Shown here: piece after piece, positions 1,008 to 21,726 of the stretch | How positions within the stretch are numbered: the first letter of the stretch is position 1 | Layout: each line of letters opens with the position of its first letter | From: an uncultured Pseudomonadota bacterium | GTDB taxonomy: Bacteria > Pseudomonadota > Gammaproteobacteria > Burkholderiales > Burkholderiaceae_C | Assembly: GCA_900320815.1 (NCBI GenBank) | Contig: ONTY01000002.1 | Coordinates: 1-24,052, forward strand | Reading direction: 5' to 3' | DNA length: 24,052 nucleotides | Position numbers and translations under genes: made by a program | The notes under the pieces: generated by a model | Told to the model about the DNA's origin: nothing | Database searches by the model: none | Seen by the model: only the letters and a program-made list of their open reading frames with translations

Positions 1008-1064
1008 TACTCTGCTTGATAATGCTTGCTTGCCAGCGTGTTTTGCGGGCAATTGTGCAATACC
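1008..1064 (+). repeat. 57-bp dispersed palindromic element, copy 1
   Basis: TACTCT at 1008-1013, 17-bp spacer, 21-bp imperfect palindrome at 1031-1051 (arms TGCCAGCGT and TTGCGGGCA around a 3-bp loop), 8-bp spacer, ATACC at 1060-1064. It lies just upstream of the Rpn gene. The geometry matches six other copies in this window. Confidence 0.8.
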
Positions 1065-1147
1065 GGCGCATTCTATTCATCATACGCACAAACACTGCAA
1101 GCGGAGTTGGCACCCTTCGCGGGCAAGGGAACGGTGCGTGTATTGTC

Positions 1148-1188
1148 AAGAGCAACATAGGTGACAAGTGGGCAAGAGCATAGGTAAC
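1148..1188. repeat. Pair of short direct repeats resembling insertion-sequence ends
   Basis: CAAGAGCAACATAGGTGAC (1148-1166) and CAAGAGCATAGGTAAC (1173-1188) are two related copies 25 bp apart. Closely spaced short repeats like these recall the multiple terminal repeats of IS21-like elements. No transposase of that type and no matching opposite end is present, so an IS remnant is only a guess. Confidence 0.4.
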
Positions 1189-1409
1189 ACCCTCACAGCC
1201 TGTCTGCTTCGCTGCAGGGGCGAGGAGATGTTTCTTGTATGCAGTGAGCAGCACGGGCAAATTCAGCTTTCAGGTGAGGTGAAAAAAGTTTCTGCCTTTG
1301 CCTGCCGCCTCTTGAAATGCGGCCTGTGCGCCAGCACATACTTGGTTTTTGCCGTGCACCAGGCGCATTGCGAACGCACGGCTTGGCTTGCCTCCCCTCC
1401 CTTTTGGAT

Positions 1410-1706
1410 ATGGAAACGATTTACGACTCTGATCGCTTCATCGTGGTGCATATGCTGTGCAACAGTGCTGATGACGATGCCAGTGAGCCGCCACAGGATG
1501 CGGCAGCGGCTGTGGCAACGCTGCGCCACAGTTTTGAGATTGTGGACAAGCAGGCGGGCACGCAGCTGTACCTGGATGGCATGTGGTCAGAGCTGTTCCA
1601 GCAGCGCATTGCCGAGTGGCATATCAACGTCCCTACGCAGCAGGAGGTGGAGGACACTCTGGCGGGGTTTGCCGGGCTGGCGCAGACGCCTTTGACGTTG
1701 CATTGA
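1410..1706 (+). CDS. DUF3567 family protein
   Basis: A 98-residue protein starting METIYDSDRFIVVHM. The family pattern, as I know it from Burkholderiales, is visible: a short beta-strand start, GFEIVDK-like text (here FEIVDKQAGTQLYLDG, around residues 46-61), a helical WSELFQQ segment, and a tail ending in LTLH. Biochemical function is unknown for the family. The ATG at 1410 is chosen because the family begins there; the open frame reaches further up to 1317 but that part looks unrelated, and no strong ribosome site is seen. It sits 14 bp before purU on the same strand, so the two are probably co-transcribed. Confidence 0.8.
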   Translation: METIYDSDRFIVVHMLCNSADDDASEPPQDAAAAVATLRHSFEIVDKQAGTQLYLDGMWSELFQQRIAEWHINVPTQQEVEDTLAGFAGLAQTPLTLH

Positions 1707-1720
1707 TTACGGGGCGCGCT

Positions 1721-2575
1721 ATGCAAGACAGTTACGTTCTCACGCTCTCGTGCCCGGACAAGCGCGGCATCGTGCACGCGGTAACAGGCTTTTTGCTCGA
1801 GCACGGCGGCAATATTGAAGAGGCCGCGCAGTTCAATGACCGCGCCAGCGGTCTGTTTTTCATGCGTGTGCGCTTTCATTGCCCAGGCGCTGATGCCGGG
1901 GCGCTGCAGGCGGCGCTGGGCGAGTTTGCGCCGTCGCTGGAGCTCACGTGGGAGCTGCATCCGCTGGCGCAGGCAATGCGCTGTGCCATTTTTGTGAGCC
2001 GCCAGGGGCACTGCCTCAACGATTTGCTCTTCCGCTGGAAGAGCGGGCTGCTGCCGCTGCTAGATATTCGTGCCATCGTCAGCAACCACCGCGATTTCTA
2101 CCAATTGGCGGCCAGCTACAACGTGCCTTTCCACCACACCCCCACCAGTGGCGCGGGCAGCAAGGAGCAGGCCGAGGCGCGGCAGTTGGCCATCATTGAA
2201 GAAGAGGGTGTGCAGCTTGTGGTGCTGGCGCGCTATATGCAAATTCTCTCGCCGGCGATGTGTCAGCGCCTGAGTGGGCGCGCCATCAACATTCACCACA
2301 GCTTTCTGCCGAGTTTCAAAGGGGCACGCCCATACGCGCAAGCGCACGCGCGAGGGGTGAAGTTGATTGGTGCCACGGCGCACTATGTGACGGCTGACCT
2401 GGATGAAGGCCCCATCATTGAGCAGGATGCGACGCGCGTGGATCACAGCCTGGACGTCGAAGATTTGGCCGCCATTGGGCGCGATACCGAGAGCCAGGTG
2501 CTTGCGCGCGCCGTCAAGTGGCACAGCGAACACCGCGTGTTGCTCAACGGGCAGCGGACTGTGGTTTTTCGCTGA
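1721..2575 (+). CDS. purU: Formyltetrahydrofolate deformylase
   Basis: A 284-residue cytosolic enzyme that hydrolyses 10-formyl-THF to formate and THF, feeding formate to PurT and balancing one-carbon pools. The length matches the family. An N-terminal ACT domain (about residues 4-80, with SCPDKRGIVHAVTGFLLEHG) is followed by a formyltransferase-fold catalytic domain. Visible family motifs are the NHRDF segment, HHTPTSG, a VLARYMQILSP strand, and the active-site block INIHHSFLPSFKGARPY followed by LDEGPIIEQ, which supply the conserved Asn, His and Asp. The ATG at 1721 fits the family start; the frame extends upstream but overlaps DUF3567. The ribosome site is weak, consistent with coupling to the gene 14 bp upstream. 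Confidence 0.95.
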   Translation: MQDSYVLTLSCPDKRGIVHAVTGFLLEHGGNIEEAAQFNDRASGLFFMRVRFHCPGADAGALQAALGEFAPSLELTWELHPLAQAMRCAIFVSRQGHCLNDLLFRWKSGLLPLLDIRAIVSNHRDFYQLAASYNVPFHHTPTSGAGSKEQAEARQLAIIEEEGVQLVVLARYMQILSPAMCQRLSGRAINIHHSFLPSFKGARPYAQAHARGVKLIGATAHYVTADLDEGPIIEQDATRVDHSLDVEDLAAIGRDTESQVLARAVKWHSEHRVLLNGQRTVVFR

Positions 2576-2716
2576 AACGGCTGCGGCGCGCTGCACGCCG
2601 CGCCGCGCCCCACGCCATACGGGGCGCCCGCTGCCGCTGGTGCCACCCGGTGGCGCGCCATAATCCCGCCCCTTACGTATCAATCTGCAACGAATCTGCA
2701 AACTGGAGTTTCCGCC

Positions 2717-3769
2717 GTGGCACAAATGGATATCACCCAACTGCTGGCCTTCGGGGTCAAGAACAAAGCCTCAGACTTGCACCTGTCAGCCGGGCTGCCG
2801 CCGCTCATCCGCGTGCACGGTGACGTGCGGCGTTTGAATGTGCCTGCGCTCACGCACAAAGATGTCTACGACATGCTCTACGACATCATGAACGACACGC
2901 AGCGCAAGGTGTACGAAGAAAACCTGGAGGTGGACTTCTCGTTTGAGATTGAAGGGCTGGCACGCTTTCGCGTGAACGCTTTCAACCAATACCGGGGCGC
3001 CGCCGGCGTGCTGCGCACCATTCCCAGCAAAATCTTGACGCTCGAGCAGCTCAACTGCCCGCGCATCTTCGCCGAGCTGTCATTGAAACCGCGCGGCCTG
3101 GTGCTCGTGACTGGCCCCACGGGGTCGGGTAAGTCCACCACGCTGGCGGCGATGATCAACCACCTCAATGAAACTGAATACAGCCATGTGCTGACGGTGG
3201 AAGACCCAATTGAGTTCGTGCACGAGTCCAAGAAGTGCATCGTCAACCAGCGTGAAGTCGGCCCCATGACGCACAGCTTCGCCAACGCCCTGCGCTCGGC
3301 GCTGCGCGAAGACCCGGACGCCATCCTCGTGGGTGAGATGCGCGACCTGGAAACCATCCGCCTGGCCATGACCGCCGCAGAAACTGGCCACCTGGTGTTT
3401 GGCACGCTGCATACATCCAGCGCACCAAAAACGATTGACCGCATTATTGACGTGTTTCCTGCGTCAGAAAAAGAAATGGTGCGCGCCATGCTTTCAGAGT
3501 CCCTGGTGGCCGTTATCTCGCAGACACTGTGTAAACTCAAAGACGGCTCCGGGCGTGTGGCTGCGCACGAAATCATGCTGGGCACTCCCGCCATTCGCAA
3601 CCTGATTCGCGAGGCGAAGGTCGCACAAATGTATTCCTCCATCCAGACGGGCAATAGCCTGGGGATGCAAACGCTGGACCAGAACCTCACCGACCTGGTG
3701 CGCCGCAACCAGATTACCCCGGCTGAGGCGCGCGCCAAGGCAAAAATCCCGGAAAACTTCCCCGGCTAA
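2717..3769 (+). CDS. pilT: Type IV pilus retraction ATPase PilT
   Basis: A 350-residue hexameric ATPase that powers pilus depolymerisation for twitching motility and DNA uptake, acting at the cytoplasmic face of the pilus machine. Visible motifs: a PAS-like N-terminal domain with SDLHLSAGLPP, Walker A GPTGSGKS (133-140), Asp box LTVEDPIEF (159-167), Walker B ILVGEMRD (203-210), His box HLVFGTLHT (225-233), and the C-terminal AIRNLIRE motif (292-299) known to be needed for retraction. The GTG at 2717 is preferred because GGAG lies 9 bp upstream; many homologues start at the MDI three codons later (ATG 2726). The gene is followed 71 bp later by pilU in the same direction, the usual betaproteobacterial order. 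Confidence 0.97.
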   Translation: MAQMDITQLLAFGVKNKASDLHLSAGLPPLIRVHGDVRRLNVPALTHKDVYDMLYDIMNDTQRKVYEENLEVDFSFEIEGLARFRVNAFNQYRGAAGVLRTIPSKILTLEQLNCPRIFAELSLKPRGLVLVTGPTGSGKSTTLAAMINHLNETEYSHVLTVEDPIEFVHESKKCIVNQREVGPMTHSFANALRSALREDPDAILVGEMRDLETIRLAMTAAETGHLVFGTLHTSSAPKTIDRIIDVFPASEKEMVRAMLSESLVAVISQTLCKLKDGSGRVAAHEIMLGTPAIRNLIREAKVAQMYSSIQTGNSLGMQTLDQNLTDLVRRNQITPAEARAKAKIPENFPG

Positions 3770-3840
3770 GCACGCAGCGCAGCTGCTGGATATTGATTTT
3801 TTGAATCGGCGCCTGCACTGGTGCCAAGGAGTGCCCAATC

Positions 3841-5062
3841 ATGGCAATGGAACGCGACCAAGCCACCAAATTCATCCACGACCTGTTGCGACTGATGATT
3901 TCGCGCAAAGGCAGCGACTTGTTCATCACCGCCGACTTCCCGCCAGCTATCAAGGTAGACGGCAAAGTCAATAAAGTTTCCCCCCAGGCGCTCACGCACG
4001 GGCACACCATCGCACTGGTGCGCTCGGTCATGAACGACAAGCAGGCTGCCGAGTTTGAAAAAACCAAGGAGTGCAACTTCGCCATTTCGCCAGCAGGCAT
4101 CGGGCGCTTTCGCTGCAACGCCTTCATGCAGTCAGGTAAAGTGGGCATGGTGTTCCGCCTGATTCCGCAAGAGTTGCCAACCATTGACGAGTTGTTCATG
4201 GACGGCAAACTGATCCGCAAAATTGCCGGGCAAGTTGCACCTGGATCTGTCGCAGCTTGAAATGAACAACCTGCGCCTGGTGGAAACGCTCAAAAACGTT
4301 GCCATGACCGAACGCGGCCTGGCCATCATGGTCGGCGGCACTGGCACGGGCAAATCCACCACGCTGGCGGCAATGGTGGATTGGCGCAACACCCACAGCT
4401 ACGGGCACATCATTACGGTGGAAGACCCAGTTGAGTTTGTGCATCCGCACAAAAACTGCATCATCACGCAGCGCGAAGTGGGACTGGATACCGATAGCTG
4501 GGAAGCGGCGCTGAAAAATACCCTGCGCCAGGCACCCAACGTCATCCTGATGGGGGAAATCCGCGACCGCGAAACGATGGAACACGCCGTCGCCTTTGCC
4601 GAAACCGGGCACTTGTGTCTGGCAACGCTGCACGCCAACAGCGCCAACCAGGCGCTGGACCGCATCATCAACTTCTTCCCCGAAGAGCGCCGCCAGCAGC
4701 TGCTCATGGATTTGTCGATGAACCTGCGCGCCCTCATCTCGCAGCGCCTGATTCGGCGCGAAAGCGGCAAAGGGCGCACAGCGGTGGTGGAAATCATGCT
4801 CGGCACGCCGCTGGTCTCTGACCTCATCTTCAAAGGCGAAGTAGGCGAAATAAAGGATCTCATGCGCCGCAGCCGCGAACTGGGTATGCAAACCTTTGAC
4901 CAGGCGCTGTTTGACGCTTTTGAAAAAGGCTTGATTAGCTATGAAGACACGCTGCGCTACGCCGACTCCTCCAACGACGTGCGCCTGCAAATCAAGCTCA
5001 ACAGCCAGCGCGCCAAGAACCGCGACTTGACCGCCGGCACCGAAGGGCTGGAAATTATGTAA
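3841..5062 (+). pseudogene. pilU: PilT-dependent retraction ATPase PilU, interrupted by an apparent frameshift
   Basis: Two overlapping frames together spell PilU. Frame 1 (3841-4260) gives the N-terminal domain, from MERDQATKFIHDLL to LPTIDEL, then runs into TGA at 4258-4260. The rest, with Walker A GGTGTGKS, EDPVEFVHPHKNC, GEIRDRETMEHAVAF and TLHANSANQALDRI, lies one base over and ends at TAA 5062. A one-base difference between 4214 and 4257 would join them; AAAA at 4219-4222 and GGG at 4228-4230 are candidate slip sites. About 25 extra residues lie between TIDEL and LKNVAMTERGL compared with PilU proteins I know, so the joined product would be about 406 residues against a usual 375-385. 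AAGGAG at 3826-3831 supports the start. Sequencing error, decay and programmed shifting are all possible. Confidence 0.85.
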
Positions 5063-5117
5063 ACCGCGCGCGCTGCTTGCCGCGCACCCTGCCCCGGGCA
5101 CGCGCAGGCACAAATGC

Positions 5118-5151
5118 AAAAAACGCCGAATATTCAATTCGGCGTTTTTTT
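5118..5151. terminator. Bidirectional rho-independent terminator
   Basis: A 9-bp stem ACGCCGAAT / ATTCGGCGT (5123-5131 with 5137-5145) with a 5-base loop is flanked by a run of A on the left and of T on the right. It serves the convergent pilU (plus) and phaM (minus) genes. Confidence 0.92.
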
Positions 5152-5170
5152 ATTGGCTTTTGCTTTTCTC

Positions 5171-5887
5171 TTATTTATCTGCCTTGCCACCCGGGGCGGC
5201 TTTCTTGCGGACTGCTGCCGGTTTGGCTGCCTCGGTTCCTCCCTCGTCGATGCTGCCTGCACCATCGCCCCCATCCTTGGGCTGCGGCTTGGTGTGCGAC
5301 GCGGCAGCGGCCATAGCCGCTTCCATTGCGGCCTGCTGCTGCGCGGTATTGGCATACAGCTGCTGAAACTGGCTGCCAAGTGCGTTCCACCACATTTGCG
5401 ACATCTGTGCCGGTATCGCCATGCTGGCTGCGGCTTGTGCCGCCAGCTTGGCCGCATCATCTTTGCTGCCCGCATCTGCAGCACCAGCCTGGGCTGGCGC
5501 TGCTGCGCTGGCGCCTGTGCCTGCACCCAAGGGCCACCCCGCCGCCATAGGTGCAGCAGCGGCGCCTTGCTGCGCCTTTCCTGTAGCCGCTGCCCCTGCT
5601 GCCGGGGCGCTCAATGCTTTAGCGAACTCTGCCATGCCAAGGTTCATGGAACTGAGCGTGCCCAGCGTCATCTTCTGCACTTCCAGCGCCTGGATGGTGC
5701 TTTTGACAATGGTGGCGTTTTGCTCCAGCCAAAAGAGCACGGTTTTGAGTTCATTGATGCGCCCGTCAAGCTCCTTGGGGTCAAGCGTGGGCATCCAGCC
5801 TGCCATCGGCAGGGATGCACCCGCAGGCGCTTTGAAGTCAAAGCCGGGAAACATGCCGCTAAAAGGATTGGTGGTGCTGGAGCTCAT
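5171..5887 (-). CDS. phaM: PhaM-type polyhydroxyalkanoate granule regulatory protein
   Basis: A 238-residue protein. The middle section PTLDPKELDGRINELKTVL, followed by WLEQN, TIQALEVQKMTLGTL and a Met-rich turn, is the conserved helical core of PhaM proteins, which activate PHA synthase and tether PHA granules to the nucleoid. Next comes an Ala/Gly-rich linker, then a second short conserved piece (MWWNALGSQFQQLY), then a Lys/Ala/Pro-rich tail ending KKAAPGGKADK, like the DNA-binding basic tail of Cupriavidus PhaM. Two in-frame ATGs exist (5893 and 5887). The second is chosen because AGGAG lies 8 bp upstream of it but only 2 bp from the first. It converges on pilU across the terminator at 5118-5151. 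It could be annotated more loosely as a phasin-like protein. Confidence 0.8.
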   Translation of the reverse strand: MSSSTTNPFSGMFPGFDFKAPAGASLPMAGWMPTLDPKELDGRINELKTVLFWLEQNATIVKSTIQALEVQKMTLGTLSSMNLGMAEFAKALSAPAAGAAATGKAQQGAAAAPMAAGWPLGAGTGASAAAPAQAGAADAGSKDDAAKLAAQAAASMAIPAQMSQMWWNALGSQFQQLYANTAQQQAAMEAAMAAAASHTKPQPKDGGDGAGSIDEGGTEAAKPAAVRKKAAPGGKADK

Positions 5888-5986
5888 GCTCATCTCTCCT
5901 GTCCGCTGAACAACGCTGCATCGTGCAGACGATGCGCGCAGCTTACCGCAGGCACTGCGCAGCGCACGGGCACAATCGCGCGCCTT

Positions 5987-7648: not shown

Positions 7649-7708
7649 AGTGCCGCCGCGCACGCGCCTGCTTCCTCCTCATCCACCTCCATCGCCACAA
7701 TCACTGCC

Positions 7709-8254: not shown

Positions 8255-8272
8255 GGCGCTGGCTCTTTTAAA

Positions 8273-8329
8273 TACTCCATCAATCAATCATCTGTTGCCC
8301 GCGTATTACGCTGGCATTTTTCATATACC
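8273..8329 (+). repeat. 57-bp dispersed palindromic element, copy 2
   Basis: TACTCC at 8273-8278, 17 bp, palindrome at 8296-8316 with arms TGCCCGCGT and ACGCTGGCA, 8 bp, ATACC at 8325-8329. It forms the left arm of the 230-bp inverted repeat with copy 3. Confidence 0.85.
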
Positions 8330-8344
8330 ATATTTATTGCAGCT

Positions 8345-8430
8345 CTGTTCAACCACGGTTGAGGCGCTTGCGCGCCCACAAGGGGCGCCCCTACGGGTGG
8401 GTATTTTGTACGTCAATGCTGGTTGAACAG
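8345..8430. repeat. Inner inverted repeat with GC-rich centre
   Basis: CTGTTCAACCA (8345-8355) and TGGTTGAACAG (8420-8430) are perfect 11-bp inverted copies. Between them lies a GC-rich core with CCACAAGGGGCGCCCCTAC, a type of sequence I associate with dispersed intergenic repeats in several phyla. Its midpoint equals that of the flanking copies 2 and 3. Confidence 0.75.
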
Positions 8431-8445
8431 CACCGAATTTCTGTG

Positions 8446-8502
8446 GGTATATGATTGTTGCCCGCATATCTTACGGGCAACAAGGCATTAATGATTTGGG
8501 TA
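8446..8502 (-). repeat. 57-bp dispersed palindromic element, copy 3
   Basis: Read on the minus strand: TACCCA at 8502-8497, 17 bp, palindrome at 8459-8479 with arms TGCCCG and CGGGCA, 8 bp, ATACC at 8450-8446. It is the mirror partner of copy 2. Confidence 0.85.
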
Positions 8503-8525
8503 TATGAAAAAGGAGAGCGGCACCG

Positions 8526-9440
8526 CTACCTGCCCCCGTGGATGTCTACGGGGCTGAACGCACTGTTGAGGTCGGGTTCAGGCATCAGCGGCATGGGCAT
8601 GGTTTCGGGCATAGGCGGCAGGGCGTCGCCTGCAAGCTCAAACACGTGCCCCCAGCGCAGGCGCTGAATGCGCGCAGTGCCGATGCGCCGGTGCGGGTTG
8701 CGCTCGGCCAGGTCGGCGACTTCGCTCAAGATGAGTGGCACTTCGGCGCGCTTCAAATGGAAGATGTAGATGGGGTAGTCAGCGTCTGGCGCCATCATTT
8801 CCAGCCCTTCGGCCAGCAGGTTGGGGGTGAGGTGCAGCGACAGCTGCGCGAGTGCCTCGCAGCGGTTGCTGAACGCGCATTCAATGGCCAACTCGCCCAC
8901 GTTCATTTGCACCAGCCGCCGCCAAAAGGCAGGACACGGGCCAGTGTCGCCACTGCACACCCACCAGGGCGAGCGCCAGTTGCCCGCGCGCACGGCGTAG
9001 CCAACGGTGGGCACGCTGTGGTTGGCGGGCAGCGCCTCAACGAAGCGCCCGGCCACTTCCACGGTTTGCCCGACGGCGATGGGGTGGTAGCGCAGCGCGG
9101 GTGCGTCGGGCGAGGGCAGGCGCGAGAAGTCCGGCCAAATGGAGCCGTTGAAGATGTGCGCGCGCAGCGCCTCTATCGTGGCAGGCAGCGCCCAGACGTG
9201 CATGGTGTGGGGACGACCAGCGTAGGCGGTGGAGACGGCGTCCACCAGCATGGGCAGGTGGGCGATGTGATCCATGTGCGCATGCGTGAGAAAGATGGTG
9301 CTGATGGAGCACATCTCATCCAGTGACAGGCGTCCGGCGCCTGTGCCTGCGTCTACGAGAATGTCATCGTCCACAAGAAACGCTGACGTATGACTGTCGC
9401 GGCCAATAGTGCCGGAGCAGCCGAGTACTCGCACTTTCAT
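8526..9440 (-). CDS. Class II 3',5'-cyclic-nucleotide phosphodiesterase (metallo-beta-lactamase fold)
   Basis: A 304-residue enzyme expected to hydrolyse cAMP (or cGMP) to the 5'-monophosphate. Family signs are the opening MKVRVLGCSGTIG, the metal-binding THAHMDHIAHLPML (about residues 52-65), a later ANHSVPTVGYAV with a ligand His, SGDTGPCPAFW with the bridging Asp, an IECAFSN segment, HLTPN, and IYIFHLKR near residue 231. This order fits PDEase_II proteins of bacteria and yeast Pde1 more than generic lactamase-fold hydrolases. The C-terminal 40 residues are Pro/Met-rich. The ATG at 9440 is the only sensible start, though no ribosome site is seen. It lies 62 bp downstream of the adenylate cyclase gene on the same strand, so synthesis and breakdown of the messenger are encoded together. 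Confidence 0.85.
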   Translation of the reverse strand: MKVRVLGCSGTIGRDSHTSAFLVDDDILVDAGTGAGRLSLDEMCSISTIFLTHAHMDHIAHLPMLVDAVSTAYAGRPHTMHVWALPATIEALRAHIFNGSIWPDFSRLPSPDAPALRYHPIAVGQTVEVAGRFVEALPANHSVPTVGYAVRAGNWRSPWWVCSGDTGPCPAFWRRLVQMNVGELAIECAFSNRCEALAQLSLHLTPNLLAEGLEMMAPDADYPIYIFHLKRAEVPLILSEVADLAERNPHRRIGTARIQRLRWGHVFELAGDALPPMPETMPMPLMPEPDLNSAFSPVDIHGGR

Positions 9441-9502: not shown

Positions 9503-11776
9503 TTATTTTTCAGTGAACTCCAGCGTACCGTCCCATTTATCAGCCGGCGGCGGGAATCTAAGCGCCGAGATTACGCTGTCTTCGTAAAGTTTGTATGGGG
9601 AAAAATCAGCGTTTTGATGGCGCAGCGCGCGGATTTTTGTCCAACATGCGCCAAAGTTGCGCGCCCTCCAGTCGGCGAGTGCCGCTTGCCACAGCGCCAG
9701 CTCTTCGCCCAGCGTGCCGTCGTCAAGCTGGCTCTCATCGCCGCCGCCGGCGCCTTCAGAGCGCACGGTGTAGATGACCACTGGGCGCGAGCGCCCTTTC
9801 ACGCGCACGCTGCCCAACTCTTGCCACAAGCAGCCGGCAGGTAATGCGTGCACTTGCGCGTGCGTGTCTTCGCTGACGATGATGTTCACGCCCAGCGGAC
9901 GCGTGATCCCCTCTAAGCGCGAGGCCAGGTTCACCGCATCACCGATCACGGTGTAGGCACGGCGCACGTCAGAGCCCATGTTGCCGACGGCAACAACGCC
10001 GGTGTTCAGCCCGATGCCGGCGGTCAGAACCGGCAGCCCCAGCGCACGGCGCTCAGCGGCCATCCTGTCTATGGCAGCGGCCATGCCCAGCGCCGCTTCC
10101 ACCGCCTGCTGCGCGTGCTCGGCTGTGGGCACGGGTGCACCCCAGAACGCCATCACGCAGTCGCCCATGTATTTGTCAATGGTGCCGTAGTGCTGGCTGA
10201 TGACGGCGCCCAGGCTGCTGAAAATTTCGTTGAGGTGTTGCTGCAAGTCGGTGGGTTCCATCGCCTCCGCGATGGCAGTAAAGCCGATGAGGTCGCAGAA
10301 CATGACGGTGAGTTCTTGCGCCCTGGCCTGCATCCCGTAGTCGTCCGGATTGCGCTGCATCTGACGCACCAGGTCGGCGGGCACGTAGGTGGCGAAGTGG
10401 TGCGCGAGTTCGTTGCGTGCGCGGCTTTCAAGGAAGTAGCCCAGCGCCAGGTTGGCCGTGAGCGCCGTGATGACCAGCAACAGCGGCTCGGCCAGCGGCA
10501 GCACCAGGTCGCCACCCAAAAACAGCGCCAAGTTCACCCCCACCACCAGCGCCAGCAGCCCAAGCCCCAGTCCCAGCGTGGGCAGCGGGCGCTGGCGCGG
10601 CATAAGAACGGTGAGCGCCAGCGCCAACAGCAGCAGCTGCGTGATGTGAAAGCCCTGCACCCAGTCCGGCACGTAGGGCACGGTGCCATCGAGCATCCCG
10701 GAAATCATGCTGGCGTGCACTTCCACCCCCGGATACGCCGGGCCCACCGGCGTGGTGCGCAAGTCCATCAACCCCATCGAGGTAAAGCCCAGCAGCGCGA
10801 TGCGCCCGTGCAACTCCCCGGGCGACAAAGTGCCATCCAGCACATCAGCTGCCGAGATATAGCGAAATGAGCCGCCGTCCGGGCCGCCCGGGCCGCGGTA
10901 GGGCACAAGCGCCGTGCCCAGCGGCTGCAAGAACACCGGCTCGGGCATGGCGTCGCCACCAGTGAGCAGCAGGCGATACAGCGGCCCGCCCGGGCGCCCA
11001 GGCACGCGCCCGATGTGCAGCGCCGAGCCGCTGTGCGCCTGCTGCAGCGTCGCCACAGCCAGCGAGGTGTAAATGTCGCCGTCCAGCGAGGCGAGCAGCG
11101 GCGCCGAGCGCACCACACCGTCGCGCCCGCCGTAGCTGTTGATGAAGCCCGCTGCGCGCGCCGCTTGCGCCAATTGCGCAATGGGGGCGCCGTAGCCGCT
11201 CCAGTGCAGCAGCCCGGGCGGCGGCGGCTCCATGTGCATCAGCGGACGCGGAAGCTGGCCAGAGCGGTGCCCGCCGCGGTCGCTCGTCAAATAAAACGCC
11301 AGCGCCACGGGGCTGACTTCCAGCGCCTCGGCAAACTGGCGGTCATGGTCCAGCCGCGCGGCGTTGCGCGAAATCCAGCCAGCCAGCGCCGAGTCTTTTT
11401 TCAGTTCACCCTCGGCCAGCCGCCGTAACTCGGGCAGCGAGCTGCTGCGGTCGCTCTCGCCAAACACCGCGTCAATCCCCAGCGCAGCAACGCCTTGGCG
11501 GTGCACCAACTCGTGCACCAGCGCCGCCATGCGGTCCCGCCCCCACGGCCACTGCCCGATGCGCGCGAGGCTTGGCTCGTCCACATCGATGATGACGATG
11601 CGCTCGTCCATCGTGCCGGGCATCGTCAGGTTCAGCCGTGTGTCATAGAGCACGTTTTCCAGCGTGTCCATCCACTGCAACTCCAGCGCGCCGAGCGTGT
11701 GCGAGAGCAGTGTGAGCGAAATCAGCGCCGTCACCGCCAGGCGCCTGCCGTATTGCCGCCAAATGGTGCGTGGCAT
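9503..11776 (-). CDS. CHASE2-domain adenylate cyclase (class III)
   Basis: A 757-residue membrane sensor cyclase. An N-terminal membrane segment (about 12-30) leads to a periplasmic CHASE2 domain (about 35-330; IVIIDVDEPSLARIGQWPW, FINSYGGRDGVVRSAPLL, RIALLGFTSMGLMDLRTTP, PGVEVHASMISGML). Three more membrane segments follow (about 345-430), then the class III catalytic domain with VMFCDLIGFTAI (first metal Asp), DKYMGDCVMAFWGAP (second metal Asp, adenine-selecting Lys) and YTVIGDAVNLASRLEG. The Lys and Thr at the base-recognition positions suggest ATP as substrate; this is inferred. The last about 90 residues are a helical tail. ATG 11776 is preferred over TTG 11827 because the membrane helix follows closely. 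It sits between an FHA gene and a phosphodiesterase gene. Confidence 0.92.
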   Translation of the reverse strand: MPRTIWRQYGRRLAVTALISLTLLSHTLGALELQWMDTLENVLYDTRLNLTMPGTMDERIVIIDVDEPSLARIGQWPWGRDRMAALVHELVHRQGVAALGIDAVFGESDRSSSLPELRRLAEGELKKDSALAGWISRNAARLDHDRQFAEALEVSPVALAFYLTSDRGGHRSGQLPRPLMHMEPPPPGLLHWSGYGAPIAQLAQAARAAGFINSYGGRDGVVRSAPLLASLDGDIYTSLAVATLQQAHSGSALHIGRVPGRPGGPLYRLLLTGGDAMPEPVFLQPLGTALVPYRGPGGPDGGSFRYISAADVLDGTLSPGELHGRIALLGFTSMGLMDLRTTPVGPAYPGVEVHASMISGMLDGTVPYVPDWVQGFHITQLLLLALALTVLMPRQRPLPTLGLGLGLLALVVGVNLALFLGGDLVLPLAEPLLLVITALTANLALGYFLESRARNELAHHFATYVPADLVRQMQRNPDDYGMQARAQELTVMFCDLIGFTAIAEAMEPTDLQQHLNEIFSSLGAVISQHYGTIDKYMGDCVMAFWGAPVPTAEHAQQAVEAALGMAAAIDRMAAERRALGLPVLTAGIGLNTGVVAVGNMGSDVRRAYTVIGDAVNLASRLEGITRPLGVNIIVSEDTHAQVHALPAGCLWQELGSVRVKGRSRPVVIYTVRSEGAGGGDESQLDDGTLGEELALWQAALADWRARNFGACWTKIRALRHQNADFSPYKLYEDSVISALRFPPPADKWDGTLEFTEK

Positions 11777-11929
11777 GTGGAGTGCGTGTGCCGTGATGCG
11801 CCTACCGGACTGAGGCGCAGCGGGCAAAAAAATGACAATAAAAATGCGGCCAGGCCGAGGTGCTTTGCTTTGCAGCAGCTACGGATACCATAGCGTGCAA
11901 CACCTGTGGCGCAGACCGCGTGCCAATCG

Positions 11930-13573: not shown

Positions 13574-13646
13574 GGTTCTCTCTCCAACTCTCTCGTGTCG
13601 CAGCAATACTCAATGCTAAGAGCGCGAGGATACATGCGGACACACA

Positions 13647-14501: not shown

Positions 14502-14526
14502 GATGCGCGCTGCCCCCGGCTCCTTT

Positions 14527-15831: not shown

Positions 15832-16743
15832 ATGGCCAAAATCTTTATCGACGGCGAAGCGGGCACCACCGGGCTGCAAATCCGCCAGCGTCTGGAAAAT
15901 ATGGCGGGCGTCACGCTGCTGGCAATTGAGCCGGCGCTGCGCAAGGACCCGGAAGCCAAGCGCGCACTCATGGCCGCAGCCGATGTCGTCATCCTCTGCC
16001 TTGCCGACGACGCTGCGCGCGAGTCCGTCGCCCTCATTGACGCCCTGCCCGCGCCGCAGCGCCCGCGCATCATTGACGCCTCCACCGCGCACCGCACCGC
16101 CGAGGGCTGGGTCTACGGCTTTGCCGAAATGGCGCTGGGGCAGCGCGAGGCCATCAGCCAAGCCGAGCGCGTCGCCAACCCCGGCTGCTACGCCACGGGC
16201 GCCATTGCGCTGCTGCGCCCGCTTGTGGACGCTGGCGTGCTGCCCGCCGACTACCCCGTCACCCTGCCCGCTGTCAGCGGCTACAGCGGTGGCGGGCGCC
16301 GGATGATTGAAGCGCACGAGGCGGGTGGCGCCAGCGCGTATGAGCTGTACGCCCTCACGCTGGCGCACAAGCACCTGCCCGAAATCGTGTGCTACGCGCG
16401 CCTCACCACCACGCCCATCTTTCTGCCTGCCGTGGCGCACTTTGCGCAGGGCATGCTGGTGGAGCTGCCGCTGCATCTGGCGCGGCTGCCCGGCGTCACG
16501 GCGGAAAAGCTGCTTGACACCTACCGCGCGCACTACGCCGGCAGCCAGTGGGTCACTGTGGAAGACGTGACGCCCGACGCCAAACTCGCCGCCGAAACGC
16601 TGGCCGGCCAGGACGGGCTGGAAATCCGCGTCTGGGCCAATGCCGCCGCGCAGCAGGCCGTGTGCATCGCGCGGCTGGACAACCTTGGCAAAGGCGCCAG
16701 CGGCGCCGCCGTGCAGAACCTGCGCCTGATGCTGGGGCTGTGA
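15832..16743 (+). CDS. argC: N-acetyl-gamma-glutamyl-phosphate reductase, type 2
   Basis: A 303-residue NADPH enzyme that reduces N-acetylglutamyl-5-phosphate to the semialdehyde in arginine synthesis. The length and the opening [19 protein letters not shown] (nucleotide-binding GxxGxxG-type loop) mark the shorter type-2 family. The catalytic Cys is residue 119 in [12 protein letters not shown] later [12 protein letters not shown] and [10 protein letters not shown] supply the other conserved positions including the active-site His. The AAAGGA ribosome site about 10 bp upstream of the ATG supports the start. Arginine genes are otherwise absent around it. It is followed 78 bp later by glyQ on the same strand. 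Confidence 0.95.
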
Positions 16744-16821
16744 CGGCGCGCCCCCCCTGCCCCGCCTTGGCCTCTTCCTAGAATCTGCCGCTTTTTCCCC
16801 TCGTTTTCCCCCCTGTCATTC

Positions 16822-17742
16822 ATGTCCGCCGACTTCCAGCACCTCATCCTCACCCTGCAAAACTACTGGGCCGACCAGGGCTGCGCGCTGCTCCAGCCCT
16901 ACGACATGGAAGTGGGCGCGGGCACCAGCCACACCGCCACCTTCCTGCGCGCCATCGGGCCTGAGCCTTGGCGCGCCGCCTACGTGCAGCCCAGCCGCCG
17001 CCCCAAAGACGGGCGCTACGGCGACAACCCCAACCGCCTGCAGCACTACTACCAATTCCAGGTGCTGCTCAAACCGGCGCCCGCCGACATCCTTGACCTC
17101 TACCTGGGGAGCCTGCGCGCACTCGGCTTTGACCTGCAAAAAAACGACGTGCGCTTTGTGGAAGACGACTGGGAAAACCCCACCCTTGGCGCCTGGGGAC
17201 TGGGCTGGGAAGTGTGGCTCAACGGCATGGAAGTGACGCAATTCACCTACTTCCAGCAAGTCGGCGGCATTGACTGCCGGCCAGCCAGCGGCGAAATCAC
17301 CTACGGGCTCGAGCGCCTTGCCATGTACCTGCAGGGCGTGGACAACGTCTACAAGCTGCAATGGGCGCCCGGGCTGACGTATGGCGACGTCTACCTGCAA
17401 AACGAGCGCGAACAGTCCGCCTACAACTTCGAGCACAGCGACGCCGACTTTCTCTTTGCCGCCTTTGCCGCGCACGAAAAGCAGGCCATGGCGCTCATTG
17501 ACGCGCAGCTTGCCCTGCCCGCCTACGAACAGGTGCTCAAAGCCGCGCACAGCTTCAACCTGCTGGACGCGCGCGGGGCGATTAGCGTCACCGAACGCGC
17601 CGCCTACATCGGGCGCATCCGGCGGCTTGCGCGCGCTGTGGCGCAGAGCTACTACGACAGCCGCGAGCGCCTCGGCTTCCCGCTGGCTCCGCGCGAATGG
17701 GTGCAGCAGCTGCCCAAGAAGAAAGAAAAGAAAGCAGCATGA
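16822..17742 (+). CDS. glyQ: Glycyl-tRNA synthetase alpha subunit
   Basis: A 306-residue class II synthetase subunit that, with GlyS, charges tRNA-Gly. The sequence is near canonical: [39 protein letters not shown], the motif-2 region [19 protein letters not shown], then [31 protein letters not shown] and the motif-3 [14 protein letters not shown]. The tail is Lys-rich (PKKKEKKAA). The gene is intact. What is odd is the context: in related betaproteobacteria glyS follows directly, then gmhB and plsC; here only 242 bp of repeat-filled DNA separate glyQ from plsC. The alpha subunit is inactive without beta, so glyS must be elsewhere in the genome. Confidence 0.97.
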
Positions 17743-17744
17743 TG

Positions 17745-17801
17745 GGTATCTCTTGAATGCCTGCATATCATGCGGGCATACAAACATGCTGCATCGGAGT
17801 A
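17745..17801 (-). repeat. 57-bp dispersed palindromic element, copy 4
   Basis: Minus-strand copy: TACTCC at 17801-17796, 17 bp, palindrome at 17758-17778 (plus-strand arms TGCCTGCAT and ATGCGGGCA), 8 bp, ATACC at 17749-17745. It starts 2 bp after the glyQ stop. Confidence 0.85.
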
Positions 17802-17827
17802 TAAAAACATTCCTTGGCGAACAACAA

Positions 17828-17885
17828 TACCCTCTACATCTTGGAAAGAATGCCCGTAAGATATGCGGGCAATCACTATCATACT
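17828..17885 (+). repeat. 57-bp dispersed palindromic element, copy 5 (one base longer)
   Basis: TACCCT at 17828-17833, 17 bp, palindrome at 17851-17871 with arms TGCCCG and CGGGCA, then 9 rather than 8 bp to ATACT at 17881-17885. Confidence 0.75.
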
Positions 17886-17898
17886 GGCGCCACTTTTA

Positions 17899-17926
17899 TT
17901 GAAAGTGCAGGAAAGTCTTATATACT
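17899..17926 (+). promoter_or_regulatory. Sigma70-like promoter overlapping repeat copy 6, upstream of plsC
   Basis: TTGAAA (17899-17904), 16-bp spacer, TATACT (17921-17926). TATACT runs into the TACTCC end of copy 6, so transcription would begin in the 17-bp spacer and the palindrome would lie in the plsC leader, 18 bp before its ATG. Confidence 0.55.
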
Positions 17927-17979
17927 CCAAAACATCATCGACGCCTGCCAGCATGTTATGCTGGCAACACGAACATACC
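17923..17979 (+). repeat. 57-bp dispersed palindromic element, copy 6
   Basis: TACTCC at 17923-17928, 17 bp, a perfect 9-bp stem palindrome at 17946-17966 (TGCCAGCAT and ATGCTGGCA around GTT), 8 bp, ATACC at 17975-17979. It ends 5 bp before the plsC start codon. Confidence 0.85.
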
Positions 17980-17984
17980 AAGCC

Positions 17985-18755
17985 ATGAGAGCCATCAACT
18001 TCCTCCGCGCGCTGCTGCACATGCTCTGGATGACGCTCACCGTCATTCCCGTTTCTCTGGCGCTGGTGGCGCTGCGCCCCTTTGTGCGTCATTCACCCGC
18101 TGCCTGGCATGGCTGGTTTTACCGGCTGGCCGCTTTTTGGCTGTGGCTGGCGGTGTGGGGCGCGAGGGTGCTGTGCGGCGTGCGCTGGCGCATCACAGGA
18201 CTCGAACACATTCCCCGCGAGGGCGCCGCAGTGCTGCTGGCCAAACACCAATCAGCGTGGGAGACGCTGGCGCTGCCCGCGCTGCTGCCGCGCCCGCTGG
18301 CGTATGTGTTCAAGCGTGAGTTGTTGCGCATCCCGTTTTTCGGCTGGGCGCTGGGCAGTCTGGACATGATTCACATTGACCGCAGCCAGCGGCAGGCGTC
18401 GGTGAAACTGGTGGTCAGCGAAGGGCGCCGCCTGCTGGGCGATGGCGTGCTGGTGGCGCTGTTCCCTGAGGGCACGCGCACGGCGCGCGGGCAGCAGGGC
18501 AAATACCTCACCAGCGGCGCGCGGCTGGCGATTGAATGCGGCGTGCCGGTTATCCCCATTGCGATTACCAGCGCGCGCTGCTGGCCGCCACGCAGCTTTG
18601 TCAAAACCCCTGGCGTGGTGGATATGTCTATCGGCGCGCCCATTGCCACGACAGGGCGCAAAGGCGCCGAGGTGATGGCCGAGGTGCAACAGTGGATCGA
18701 GGGCGAAATGCTGCGCCTGGATGCGCCCGCCTACGCGGCGACGCCGCAAGAATAA
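17985..18755 (+). CDS. plsC: 1-acyl-sn-glycerol-3-phosphate acyltransferase
   Basis: A 256-residue inner-membrane enzyme that acylates lysophosphatidic acid to phosphatidic acid in phospholipid synthesis. Two N-terminal hydrophobic stretches (about 8-30 and 45-62) precede the catalytic domain. Block 1 is KHQSAWET, an H-x4-E/D variant common in Burkholderiales; block 2 includes YVFKRELLRIPFFGWAL; block 3 is LFPEGTRTARGQQGKY; block 4 is VPVIPIAITSARCW. The start at 17985 (MRAINFLRALL) fits the membrane segment; the frame is open further upstream but runs through repeat copies 5 and 6 and is unlikely to be coding. It is followed at once by a strong terminator. The usual upstream neighbours glyS and gmhB are missing. 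Confidence 0.92.
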   Translation: MRAINFLRALLHMLWMTLTVIPVSLALVALRPFVRHSPAAWHGWFYRLAAFWLWLAVWGARVLCGVRWRITGLEHIPREGAAVLLAKHQSAWETLALPALLPRPLAYVFKRELLRIPFFGWALGSLDMIHIDRSQRQASVKLVVSEGRRLLGDGVLVALFPEGTRTARGQQGKYLTSGARLAIECGVPVIPIAITSARCWPPRSFVKTPGVVDMSIGAPIATTGRKGAEVMAEVQQWIEGEMLRLDAPAYAATPQE

Positions 18756-18770
18756 AAAAACAACACATAA

Positions 18771-18809
18771 AAAAAGCCTGCCCGGCTTTTTATCGCGGGC
18801 AGGCTTTTT
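18771..18809. terminator. Strong bidirectional terminator after plsC
   Basis: GCCTGCCCG (18776-18784) pairs with CGGGCAGGC (18796-18804), flanked by A5 and T5, so the stem may reach 14 bp. It sits 15 bp after the plsC stop. Confidence 0.93.
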
Positions 18810-18987
18810 GTTTGTCGCGTACTTTTTTACAGCGCGCTCATCCAGTAGCTGGCGTTGAATGGGTTGCTGATGCACAGCGCCTCGGGAGAAACATCCAGCA
18901 GGGCTGGCATGCTGTCACCCGCGTCTGCGGCATCGTCGCTGGCCTGGTTGTTTGCCCGTTCTGCCTGGCCGGTGTGTGCAAAACGGG

Positions 18988-19419
18988 CTACAGAAAAGAA
19001 TAAAAACACCGGAATGGAATTTTCCGATCCCCCCAGTAATCTGCCGCGTCGCGGAACACGTCAAGCAGCTGCTCGCGCACTTCCTTGTCAAAGCGCGCGG
19101 TTGACGGAATATGCTCCAGCACCACGACAAAACCCGGCTGCGGGCCGCATTTGTGCAGCGGGTCAGTCAGGCAATCGTAGAGTGCATCAAAGTTTTTGCC
19201 AAAATGCGTCGGAAAAGTGAATTGCCGGGCAATGCTCTCAAGCGCTTCCTGCTTGCTCTGCGCCTTTGAGAGGTCGGCGTAGAGAAAATGGTGGCCAAGT
19301 TGCATCGCTGCTTCTTGCAGGCCGTCGGCGTGAAATGCCCGAATTGACTGCACGATATTCGGGCGCACGCTTTTGAGTGGCGCCTCCTGTGGGGGGCGAA
19401 GGGTTTGCTCCATCTCCAC
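18988..19419 (-). CDS. Barstar-family ribonuclease inhibitor
   Basis: A 143-residue acidic cytosolic protein that would bind and block the partner RNase. The barstar core is visible: IRAFHADGLQEAAMQLGHHFL, then SKQEALESIARQFTFPTHFG, KNFDALYDCLTDPLHKCG (the typical FGxNxDALxDCLTD helix), GFVVVLEHIPS, and the end DRKIPFRCFYSFL. About 22 residues before the core are a variable extension. GTG at 19419 is chosen since GGAG lies 6 bp upstream; ATG at 19413 is possible. It is the next gene after the secreted RNase on the same strand, 50 bp away with a hairpin between them. Such pairs are common in Comamonadaceae, and the inhibitor protects against enzyme that fails to leave the cell. Confidence 0.92.
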   Translation of the reverse strand: MEMEQTLRPPQEAPLKSVRPNIVQSIRAFHADGLQEAAMQLGHHFLYADLSKAQSKQEALESIARQFTFPTHFGKNFDALYDCLTDPLHKCGPQPGFVVVLEHIPSTARFDKEVREQLLDVFRDAADYWGDRKIPFRCFYSFL

Positions 19420-19434
19420 TGCTTTCTCCGTGTC

Positions 19435-19480
19435 AAAAAAGAAAAAAGAACCACGCGTGCCGCCTTTTTTTACGGCACGC
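19435..19480 (-). terminator. Intercistronic hairpin between RNase and barstar genes
   Basis: On the minus strand GCGTGCCG and CGGCACGC (19480-19473 with 19462-19455) form an 8-bp stem; the RNase stop codon lies in the loop. Four bases later a T-rich run begins. It looks like a terminator or attenuator that would lower barstar expression from the RNase promoter. Confidence 0.7.
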
Positions 19481-19934
19481 GCACCGTTTTGTCTCTCTCT
19501 TCGTGTGCGATTCTCTTGAAACTTGCGTAGTGATCGCTTGTGTAATAACAGGCATCAGGGCGCGTGGGCTGTGCACCACCGCAGACAATGCGGCGCGCGC
19601 CACGCCCGCGCACACCGGGCGTTTTGACGGTGTATTCGCGCCAATAGCCGCGCGGCTGCTGCGGCAGCAGCCGTTCGCGGTTGCCGAAAATCTGCCCGTC
19701 TTTTTCGTATGGGAATGGCCCGCCGTTTTGAATCAGGCGCCAGGTGTCGCGTCCCTGCGCCGGCAATTCATGCAGGGCAATGGTGGCAGCACAAGCTGCT
19801 GCAGTGGCTGGGGCAAAAATGGGCGCCGCAGGCTGGCGTGCTGTGGCACTGCTGGCCGCAGCGGTTAGCGCAACTGCCAGCAATGCCGCTGACCAAAAGC
19901 GGCGGCGAGGTGCTGCGGCTGATATGTTTTGCAC
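19470..19934 (-). CDS. Secreted guanyl-specific ribonuclease (RNase Sa/T1-barnase superfamily)
   Basis: A 154-residue exported RNase. Residues 10-32 (RRRFWSAALLAVALTAAASSATA) are a signal peptide. The catalytic domain carries FPYEKDGQIFGNRERLLP, then GYWREYTVKTPG with the general-base Glu, RGARRIVCGG with the key Arg, and YYTSDHYASFKRI with the catalytic His; this matches RNase Sa/N1 proteins. No in-frame ATG exists near the start. GTG 19934 (after GGAAG) or GTG 19946 is used; longer frames run antisense into comM and are rejected. It precedes barstar on the same strand, and diverges from comM. Likely jobs are nutrient RNA breakdown or competitor killing; the sequence does not decide which. 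Confidence 0.9.
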   Translation of the reverse strand: MQNISAAAPRRRFWSAALLAVALTAAASSATARQPAAPIFAPATAAACAATIALHELPAQGRDTWRLIQNGGPFPYEKDGQIFGNRERLLPQQPRGYWREYTVKTPGVRGRGARRIVCGGAQPTRPDACYYTSDHYASFKRIAHEERDKTVRVP

Positions 19935-20097
19935 GTTGTCTTCCACTGCTGGCTGGGGCTGGTTGCTGCAAAGCGGCAAAGTGTGTGCCAGTGGCTGACA
20001 AAAATCAAGCTGCCAGCAGGGTATGCAGGTGTATCCGGGTTCGCTTTTTCCAAAGAAAAACGCAGCCGCTGTGCTGCACTGCAAGAAAGGAGTGCCA

Positions 20098-21630
20098 ATG
20101 GGATTGAGCCAACTGCATAGCCGCGCCCTGCTGGGGCTGGACGCGCCCGCCGTTGCCGTTGAAGCGCATCTGGCCGCCGGGCTGCCCGCGTTCACGCTGG
20201 TGGGGCTGGCAGATGTGGAGGTCAAGGAGGCGCGTGAGCGCGTGCGTAGCGCCCTGCTCAATTGCGGCTTTGAGTTTCCGCACAGCCAGCGCATCACCGT
20301 CAACCTTGCCCCGGCAGATTTGCCCAAGGACAGTGGGCGGTTTGATTTGCCGATTGCACTGGCCATCCTCGCAGCCAGCGGGCAGATTGACGGCGCGCAG
20401 CTGGCTGGCTGGGAGTTTGCCGGGGAGCTTTCTCTGTCTGGTGAGCTGCGCCCGGTGCGCGGCGCGCTGGCGATGGCTGCCGCGCTGCGGCGCGCTGGCG
20501 TGAAGGCGCGCCTGGTGCTGCCCGATGAGAGTGCGCGCGAGGCGGCGCTGGTGCCCGGCGCGCAGGTGTATGGCGCGCGCCACTTGCTGGATGTGGCGAC
20601 GCAATTTTTGCCGCACGCGGCAGTGGCGCCACCTGCCCAAGGCTGGCAGCGCATGGCGGCAGCGGCGCGGCTGCCGGAGCCGCCCTATCCAGACATGGCT
20701 GACATTCGCGGACAAGCAGCGCCGCGCCGCGCGCTGGAGATTGCCGCCGCTGGTGGGCACTCGCTGCTGCTCGCGGGCCCGCCGGGCAGCGGTAAATCCA
20801 TGCTGGCGCAGCGCCTGGCGGGACTGCTGCCGCCGATGAGTGAAGACGAGGCGCTGCACAGCGCCGCTGTGGCCAGTGTGGAAGGCAGCTTTCGCGCCGC
20901 GCACTGGGGGCTGCGCCCCACGCGCGCGCCACACCACTCGGCCAGCGCGGTGGCGCTGGTGGGCGGTGGCTCACCGCCGCGCCCGGGCGAAATCTCGCTG
21001 GCGCACTGCGGTGTGCTGTTTCTGGACGAGTTGCCAGAGTTTCCGCGTGCAGCGCTGGAGGCGCTGCGCGAGCCGCTGGAGAGTGGCCGCATCACCATCA
21101 GTCGCGCGGCGCGGCGGGCGGAGTTTCCGGCGCGCTTTCAGCTCATCGCCGCCATGAATCCTTGCCCCTGCGGCTGGCTGGGGTCGCGCACACGCCAATG
21201 CCGCTGCACGCCGGAACAAGTCGCGCGCTACCAGGGGCGCATCTCCGGCCCGCTGCTCGATCGTATTGACCTGCACATTGAAGTCGCTGCCCTGCCGCCG
21301 GATGAATTGCTGCACGCACCGCCGGGCGAGGCCAGTCGCACCATCCGTGCGCGTGTGTGCGCCGCGCATGAACGCGCGCTGCGGCGCCAGGGCTGCGCCA
21401 ACAGTGCGCTGGAGGCCGGTGCCATCAGCGCGCAGGCGCGGCTGGACGCCGCTGCCAGCGATTTTTTGCAAAGTGCCGCCCAGCGCCTGGGCTGGAGCGC
21501 CCGTGCCATGCACCGCGTGCTGCGCGTGGCACGCACCATCGCCGACCTGGCTGGCGCCGATGCTGTGGGCAGCGCCCACATCGCCGAAGCGGTGCAGTAC
21601 CGTCGCGGGCTGCTGGCAAGGGAGCAATAA
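20098..21630 (+). CDS. comM: ComM/YifB AAA+ ATPase (Mg-chelatase-like), branch-migration helicase of natural transformation
   Basis: A 510-residue hexameric helicase that extends the joint formed when RecA pairs taken-up DNA with the chromosome. The N-terminal ChlI-like domain (about 1-170) has the FTLVGLADVEVKEARERV and ITVNLAPADLPKDSGRFDLP motifs. Walker A is AGPPGSGKSM (226-235), Walker B is VLFLDELPEF (306-315), and a Cys-rich NPCPCGWL...QCRC cluster is at 355-370. A C-terminal helical domain ends in HIAEAVQYRR. ATG 20098 has AAGGAG about 8 bp upstream; an upstream in-frame ATG at 20023 has no such support. The gene diverges from the RNase gene. PilT/PilU on the same window also serve DNA uptake. 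Confidence 0.95.
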   Translation: MGLSQLHSRALLGLDAPAVAVEAHLAAGLPAFTLVGLADVEVKEARERVRSALLNCGFEFPHSQRITVNLAPADLPKDSGRFDLPIALAILAASGQIDGAQLAGWEFAGELSLSGELRPVRGALAMAAALRRAGVKARLVLPDESAREAALVPGAQVYGARHLLDVATQFLPHAAVAPPAQGWQRMAAAARLPEPPYPDMADIRGQAAPRRALEIAAAGGHSLLLAGPPGSGKSMLAQRLAGLLPPMSEDEALHSAAVASVEGSFRAAHWGLRPTRAPHHSASAVALVGGGSPPRPGEISLAHCGVLFLDELPEFPRAALEALREPLESGRITISRAARRAEFPARFQLIAAMNPCPCGWLGSRTRQCRCTPEQVARYQGRISGPLLDRIDLHIEVAALPPDELLHAPPGEASRTIRARVCAAHERALRRQGCANSALEAGAISAQARLDAAASDFLQSAAQRLGWSARAMHRVLRVARTIADLAGADAVGSAHIAEAVQYRRGLLAREQ

Positions 21631-21648
21631 GCTGCAATGAATCACTCT

Positions 21649-21684
21649 CAATAAAAACACCTTTCAAGGTGTATACTTTTATTG
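21649..21684. repeat. Nested inverted repeat after comM
   Basis: CAATAAAA (21649-21656) and TTTTATTG (21677-21684) bracket a perfect hairpin ACACCTT-TC-AAGGTGT (21657-21672). It may act as a weak terminator for comM and overlaps the end of repeat copy 7. Confidence 0.7.
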
Positions 21685-21726
21685 CCGTTGAATATTGATG
21701 GTAACAAGAACTTGTATTACCGAGTA
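21670..21726 (-). repeat. 57-bp dispersed element, copy 7 (diverged)
   Basis: Minus strand: TACTCG at 21726-21721, 17 bp, a 21-bp stretch at 21703-21683 that keeps the outer TACC/GGCA but has lost inner pairing, 8 bp, then a degenerate ATACA at 21674-21670. The spacing is identical to the others. Confidence 0.55.

Follow-up and report, generated by a model that had tools for sequence, protein, structure and literature searches.

The stretch of DNA analysed here, referred to as the window, comprises 24,052 nucleotides of contig ONTY01000002.1 and belongs to a metagenome-assembled genome (MAG) of Ottowia (2.10 Mb in 339 contigs, 81% complete), which we call the host. It contains seven copies of a short interspersed palindromic repeat, and this element is the subject of the present analysis. 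An initial annotation had described the copies as a 57-bp unit with a fixed layout. All seven were recovered at the claimed places with the claimed geometry. An alignment of the copies with their flanks upheld the layout and corrected the length: one further base belongs to each end, giving a unit of 59–60 bp that reads ATACYC, 17 bp, TTGCCnGC, 7 bp, GCnGGCAA, 7 or 8 bp and ATACYC (Y, pyrimidine). The palindrome inside the unit is 23 bp long, and the ATACYC-like hexamers at both termini are direct repeats.

Copy 1 (positions 1007..1065, plus strand, core GTGTTTT), copy 2 (8272..8330, plus strand, core GTATTAC) and copy 3 (8445..8503, minus strand, core AAGATAT) are each 59 bp long. Copy 4 (17744..17802, minus strand, 59 bp) lies immediately 3' of the glyQ stop codon. 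It stands head to head, across a gap of 24 bp, with copy 5 (17827..17886, plus strand), which is 60 bp long owing to a right spacer of 8 bp. Copy 6 (17922..17980, plus strand, 59 bp) follows in the same direction as copy 5 after a gap of 35 bp. In copy 7 (21669..21727, minus strand) the arms have decayed while the ATAC ends and the geometry are intact. The spacing is 17-7-8 in copy 5 and 17-7-7 in the other window copies. Six copies carry one to three mismatches, and 20 dinucleotide shuffles of the window contained no site at four or fewer. The diverged seventh copy has five arm mismatches with both ATAC ends kept 53 bp apart; a site like it was absent from all 100 of 100 shuffles.

The initial annotation had made the element depend on a genome-wide scan rising above chance and on the spacing being kept in other copies. 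The strict pattern matched 145 sites in the host genome and none in the reversed control, so the element withstood the first of these tests. The spacing was also maintained: 17-7-7 was found in 137 of 184 host copies and 17-7-8 in a further 37, and 86 of 91 copies had 17-7-7 in the one relative that carries the element, Ottowia sp. RGIG2912 (G027), a 97% complete MAG from goat omasum. Most of the loci in these spacing counts were selected because they contain a copy. The two ends belong to the unit as well. Among exact palindromes in 20 RGIG2912 stretches (mostly taken from the palindrome list, with one chosen for glyQ and two from strict-pattern matches), both ATAC ends were in register in 23 of 29, one in 6 and none in 0. 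Over all loci, where the choice of loci biases the counts, both ends accompanied 114 of 120 host palindromes (one end in 6) and 100 of 116 in RGIG2912 (one end in 16). Additional ATACC motifs outside the element were rare.

The element is restricted to a narrow clade, here represented by two related gut bacteria. A second strict pattern matched 97 sites in the host and 31 in RGIG2912, and none in 78 other relatives (27 from the genus, 19 from the family and 32 from the order). A collection spanning 84,980 species with a single genome apiece, which may omit the host's own records, yielded hits in RGIG2912 alone (28 hits on 27 stretches). The exact palindrome by itself occurred 88 times in the host and 86 times in RGIG2912; two other Ottowia had it a single time and the remaining 25 lacked it, against a reversed control of 0–2 per genome. 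A tolerant scan (at most four mismatches) returned 96 copies in 319 kb of host sequence and 207 in 552 kb of RGIG2912, which would correspond to about 620 and 770 copies if these stretches, many of them selected for holding a copy, are representative. Five host contigs taken regardless of copies held 16 in 48 kb, and 345 kb from nine other Ottowia held none. The same layout with other arms was also sought in those nine genomes and nothing clear emerged, the generic scan giving 20 sites in the 345 kb vs 11 in shuffled sequence; in the carriers it gave 14 vs 1 in host stretches and 34 vs 8 in RGIG2912 stretches. The viral contigs searched contained no copy. A literature search covering titles and the beginnings of abstracts, with subscription papers mostly outside its reach, returned no account of a 59-bp element of this kind, which is weak evidence of novelty.

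The 7-bp core obeys an asymmetric rule. Positions 33 and 35 sit on either side of the dyad, and exactly one of A33 and T35 was present in 217 of 226 RGIG2912 copies (p = 5e-53), with both in 1 (52.4 expected) and neither in 8 (59.4 expected). The corresponding host figure was 162 of 204 (p = 1e-17), with both in 23 (52.6 expected) and neither in 19 (48.6 expected). A pyrimidine precedes this A in 204 of the 217 RGIG2912 copies (left 116/121, right 88/96) and in 125 of the 162 host copies (left 53/72, right 72/90), so that one strand of the core, and only one, carries the A, in most cases as part of a YA step. The choice of strand does not follow the direction of ATACYC (121:96 in RGIG2912, 72:90 in the host). 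Six of the seven window copies conform to the rule, copy 2 being the exception. Between orthologous copies of the two species, the A had changed sides in 4 of 6 pairs in which both members obey the rule; the host copy of a seventh pair violates it. A heterodimer with two arm specificities was considered and set aside, as the two half-types differed clearly only within the core, with weak effects elsewhere.

The core rule makes a role in recombination, nicking or kinking possible. A site for recombination or one-strand nicking would consist of inverted arms around an asymmetric 7-bp overlap with outer arm-type sites; this layout resembles a tyrosine-recombinase core with its arm sites, and an A placed on exactly one strand, in either orientation, looks as if one strand were cut or kinked. 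The cores themselves are diverse (174 host copies have 125 different cores, and 88 RGIG2912 copies have 46), and such differences would block exchange between most sites; the half-types, as noted, hardly differ beyond the core. RGIG2912 has only two PF00589 tyrosine recombinases, which we take to be XerC and XerD, and the host has six. PF00239 serine recombinases number one and two in the two genomes, within the range of 0–6 in six other Ottowia. The recombinase site raised in the initial annotation thus finds no dedicated enzyme here, and we regard a recombination or nicking site as distinctly unlikely.

The statement that all copies are intergenic was nearly right. By our own gene calls, which are rough and based on codon usage, only 5 of 96 host copies and 9 of 207 RGIG2912 copies were mostly coding, where 78.5 and 173.2 would be expected. 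In both genomes the density was 3.7 copies per kb in convergent gaps and 1.3 in divergent gaps; tandem gaps held 1.25–2.8 per kb. Orientation was weakly tied to the GC skew of the contig (p = 0.018 and 0.011 in the two genomes). Neighbours more than 300 bp apart were strongly concordant in RGIG2912, where 105 of 151 had the same orientation (stretches L055–L081 and L192–L231), and not concordant in the host (35 of 71); replication polarity is possibly the cause of the RGIG2912 concordance. In one RGIG2912 stretch (L236, 10045–10427), four copies in the same direction follow at 108-bp steps with gaps of 49 bp, apparently amplified within a coding tandem repeat.

The closeness of the palindrome to gene 3' ends would suit a transcribed hairpin, acting as a terminator, an mRNA 3' end or a small RNA, and some covariation between the arms points the same way. 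The initial annotation had reported that arm changes are often compensated. This held for pair 28-40 in the host (98/174, 64.5 expected) and pair 24-44 in RGIG2912 (56/88, 43.9 expected), with no clear excess at 25-43 or 30-38. At pair 31-37, to which the alternation of GCGT/ACGC with GCAT/ATGC refers, the total was near expectation (99/174 vs 92.8 in the host; 34/88 vs 34.8 in RGIG2912); the combination T31-A37 occurred more often than expected in the host (p = 2e-4), in 14 of 204 copies. Other observations weaken the hairpin. In tandem gaps the copies followed the gene direction in 56 of 96 host cases (p = 0.13) and 74 of 129 RGIG2912 cases (p = 0.11), which is no significant bias. A preference for one RNA strand was examined through mismatches summed over the stem pairs and rejected: G-U vs A-C cells numbered 57/63 in the host and 43/13 in RGIG2912, where the excess follows column composition. 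The core rule treats the two strands alike, the ATACYC ends stand at helical distances that have no obvious meaning in RNA, and the window gave no match to Rfam models at their gathering thresholds. We consequently hold a transcribed hairpin to be quite improbable.

The element and its neighbours follow the helical repeat of DNA. In the consensus, the palindrome centre is separated from the midpoints of the two ATACYC motifs by 31.5 and 21.5 bp, about three and two turns of B-DNA. Among 40 head-to-head pairs, 36 had gaps of 3–4, 13–15, 24–26, 55–56, 76–77 or 96–98 bp, and the remaining four had gaps of 33, 41, 50 and 89 bp. The period was 10.4–10.5 bp, with nR2 of 24.7 at 10.5 bp. With the 13–15 class left out, nR2 was 9.1 (n = 21), a value reached by the jitter null in a fraction of 0.0002.

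The comparison with RGIG2912 indicated that the element is maintained. Of 58 gene gaps conserved between the two genomes, 47 are empty in both species, 6 are occupied in both and 5 are occupied on one side. Copies have been gained or lost between the species, and one of the five one-sided gaps (L205) proved to hold a decayed copy when the printed sequence was inspected. RGIG2912 also carries a copy after glyQ, at the same place and in the same orientation as copy 4 of the window, which was recognised by eye in the printed sequence. With this gap included, all 7 of 7 gaps that hold a copy in both species agree in its orientation, whereas their proteins have diverged to a median identity of 82%. 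In the seven orthologous pairs, motif positions were 73–92% identical and spacers 29–68%, and random pairs of copies gave 85% for the motif and 34% for the spacers. The proposal of a selected structure is accordingly borne out: in orthologous gaps the arms and ends have been preserved and the spacers approach randomness. Drift of the spacers to randomness while motif and geometry persist argues for selection rather than recent spread.

Spread by transposition is the substance of the rival view that the element is a repetitive extragenic palindromic (REP) sequence, once moved by a RAYT or another HUH transposase and now domesticated. PMC3733652 describes REPs as palindromic repeats of 20–40 bp in high copy number, extragenic, one end of which bears an unpaired tag (GTAG or CGTC), and REPs of the CGTC kind as lacking a dedicated transposase. 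Our element, with its 23-bp palindrome, has several hundred copies per genome, nearly all non-coding; convergent gaps are enriched and head-to-head pairs frequent, so that in abundance, position and clustering in both directions it behaves as the REPs described there. The gain and loss of copies between species and a slight excess of spacer similarity also agree with mobility. No GTAG or CGTC tag is found next to the palindrome in the consensus. RAYT (NF047646) had no match in the host or RGIG2912, and 6 of 7 other Ottowia searched match it (5 above the cut-off); the IS200/IS605-like Y1 transposase model PF01797 had none in RGIG2912 and one in the 81% complete host, a 158-residue open frame. 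Five pairs of copies match at no fewer than 25 of the 31 spacer positions; each of these pairs also has flanking DNA in common, and for this reason they look like segmental duplicates. Action on single-stranded DNA would, moreover, need no helical phasing. The REP-like designation therefore describes the abundance, position and clustering of the element and fails on the defining tag and the transposase; we consider such an origin unlikely.

A second repeat accompanies some copies. One of its ends, CTGTTMAACCASSRTTGA, lies at 8345..8362 (plus strand), 14 bp right of copy 2, and the opposite end at 8413..8430 (minus strand), 14 bp right of copy 3. These inverted ends, at up to one mismatch, occur 14 times in the host, 14 times in RGIG2912 and once in 27 other Ottowia. 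An end lies 12–15 bp right of a 59-bp copy at 8 of 9 host sites found, and at 9 distinct places among the 22 readable of 29 loci, as if the copy were a landing site for this repeat. Upkeep of the copies as targets of a second mobile repeat would agree with this placement and with PMC1525189, according to which REPs are known targets of insertion sequences (IS). Only about a dozen of the several hundred copies have the second repeat, and targeting would account for the use of a site and not for its upkeep; we find this explanation very improbable. In RGIG2912 (L295, 3408–5414) the inverted ends enclose a choice-of-anchor X protein gene. A full-length parent element was sought between such ends in RGIG2912 (C92), where the main open reading frame (ORF), the only one searched, matches a choice-of-anchor X domain, and no transposase was seen.

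Genes at divergent gaps, inspected by eye only as candidate binders, offered nothing compelling. Three proteins that adjoin copies in RGIG2912 divergent gaps resemble RelB/DinJ-type antitoxins by eye (L222 13276–13542, L198 15799–16209 and L076 2887–3192). No extra ParB/Noc-like protein was found, PF02195 (ParB) having one match each in the host and RGIG2912; in three other Ottowia (G005, G015 and G022) the ParB_N matches are split in two. Elsewhere in the window, a Barstar-family gene (18988–19419, minus strand) adjoins an ORF with a C-terminal barnase-like ribonuclease domain (19470–20654, minus strand), likely a toxin-immunity pair. A protein with CHASE2 and adenylate/guanylate cyclase domains (9503–11827, minus strand) adjoins a metallo-hydrolase gene (8526–9440) with a weak cyclic-nucleotide phosphodiesterase match. 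GlyQ of several Ottowia (L164, L165, L167 and L168) has an in-frame Gly/Ser-rich insertion of about 17–27 residues near residue 180, which is absent from the GlyQ of the window.

With about even confidence, we read the element as a selected, lineage-specific site in double-stranded DNA at which a nucleoprotein complex would assemble throughout the chromosome, much as at the sites of REPs and bacterial interspersed mosaic elements (BIMEs), without being a canonical REP. The data above establish the architecture, the copy number, the clade restriction, the position, the phasing of head-to-head neighbours, the core rule and the conservation relative to decayed spacers; a binding protein, DNA bending and a BIME-like role in chromosome architecture or topology are proposed from them. 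The placement at gene ends and the apparent interaction of neighbours are reminiscent of BIMEs. A dimer would occupy the palindrome TTGCCnGC-N7-GCnGGCAA and distort the 7-bp core asymmetrically, which would explain why one strand next to the dyad, and only one, needs an A, usually as part of a YA step. Further contacts of the complex may involve the ATACYC motifs, at a distance of three turns on the left and two on the right and all on the same helix face, and adjacent complexes may touch, which would keep the helical phase between head-to-head sites. The sites would be placed where promoters stay undisturbed, chiefly at gene 3' ends and in convergent gaps, and purifying selection would maintain them while copies are slowly gained and lost. 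A more specific form is possible and is put forward tentatively: each of the several hundred intergenic sites would offer exactly one kinkable or cuttable strand, marked by the single A, mostly in a YA step, beside the dyad, which may face either way and is flipped without being lost between orthologues, and be docked in helical register by a dedicated putative protein, making it a new kind of chromosome-organising or strand-nicking site and not a transposon relic.

Several results weigh against the nucleoprotein-site reading. Orthologous copies are no more alike in the motif than random copies, so selection is visible only relative to the spacers. Copies L066 and L075 agree at 24 of 31 spacer positions with unrelated flanks, and column shuffles produce fewer pairs with a moderate spacer likeness (18–22 of 31) than are observed (at 21 of 31, RGIG2912 has 10 pairs with 1.9 expected); some copying, or a weak spacer preference, may have contributed. 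Same-direction neighbours follow the 10.5-bp period only weakly (p = 0.007, n = 53), a period near 12–12.5 bp suiting them best, and convergent neighbours do not show it (n = 11, p = 0.22). The host adheres less strictly to the core rule (162 of 204) and less strictly again to its pyrimidine part, with copy 2 of the window in violation, and the pairing excess at 28-40 and 24-44 would not be expected of independent half-sites. The searches described above also yielded no candidate for the binding protein.

Abundant extragenic repeats are often taken as transposon debris with secondary uses, and here the copies bear internal evidence of function in their fixed helical distances, phased head-to-head neighbours, obligately asymmetric core and preserved motifs beside decaying spacers. 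What REP-like repeats do can thus be put to a direct test in a single lineage with a small genome, and the element points to a putative DNA-binding protein with several hundred chromosomal sites.

Compared with known systems, the 59-bp element fits none of the tested repeat families. It resembles a miniature inverted-repeat transposable element (MITE) in being small, non-coding and interspersed, but terminal inverted repeats were not found and the ends are ATACYC direct repeats, which speaks against the MITE-like origin initially suggested. In a check for target-site duplication, the two variable ATACYC bases (positions 4 and 57) were outside the 30 strongest column pairs of both genomes, and no empty site aligned cleanly. 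Integron attC sites have complementary R boxes at their two ends, whereas here the ends are direct and not inverted. In lambda-type att and dif sites, inverted arms enclose a short overlap that is asymmetric, and further sites lie outside them; the element shares these three features but differ­s in its variable cores, its hundreds of copies and the lack of a detected dedicated recombinase. The likeness to REPs and BIMEs extends to the short palindrome, the hundreds of extragenic copies at gene 3' ends and in convergent gaps, the neighbouring pairs in both orientations, the clade-specific sequence and the targeting by other mobile elements. It differs from them in the missing tag, the lack of a detected RAYT, the ATACYC direct repeats at fixed helical distances, the unconserved spacers, the obligately asymmetric core and, possibly, the helical phasing of head-to-head sites. 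The matS and Noc sites are 13–16 bp palindromes in fewer copies, and our element departs from them in its three parts and several hundred copies; like them, it is palindromic, scattered over the chromosome and kept by selection.

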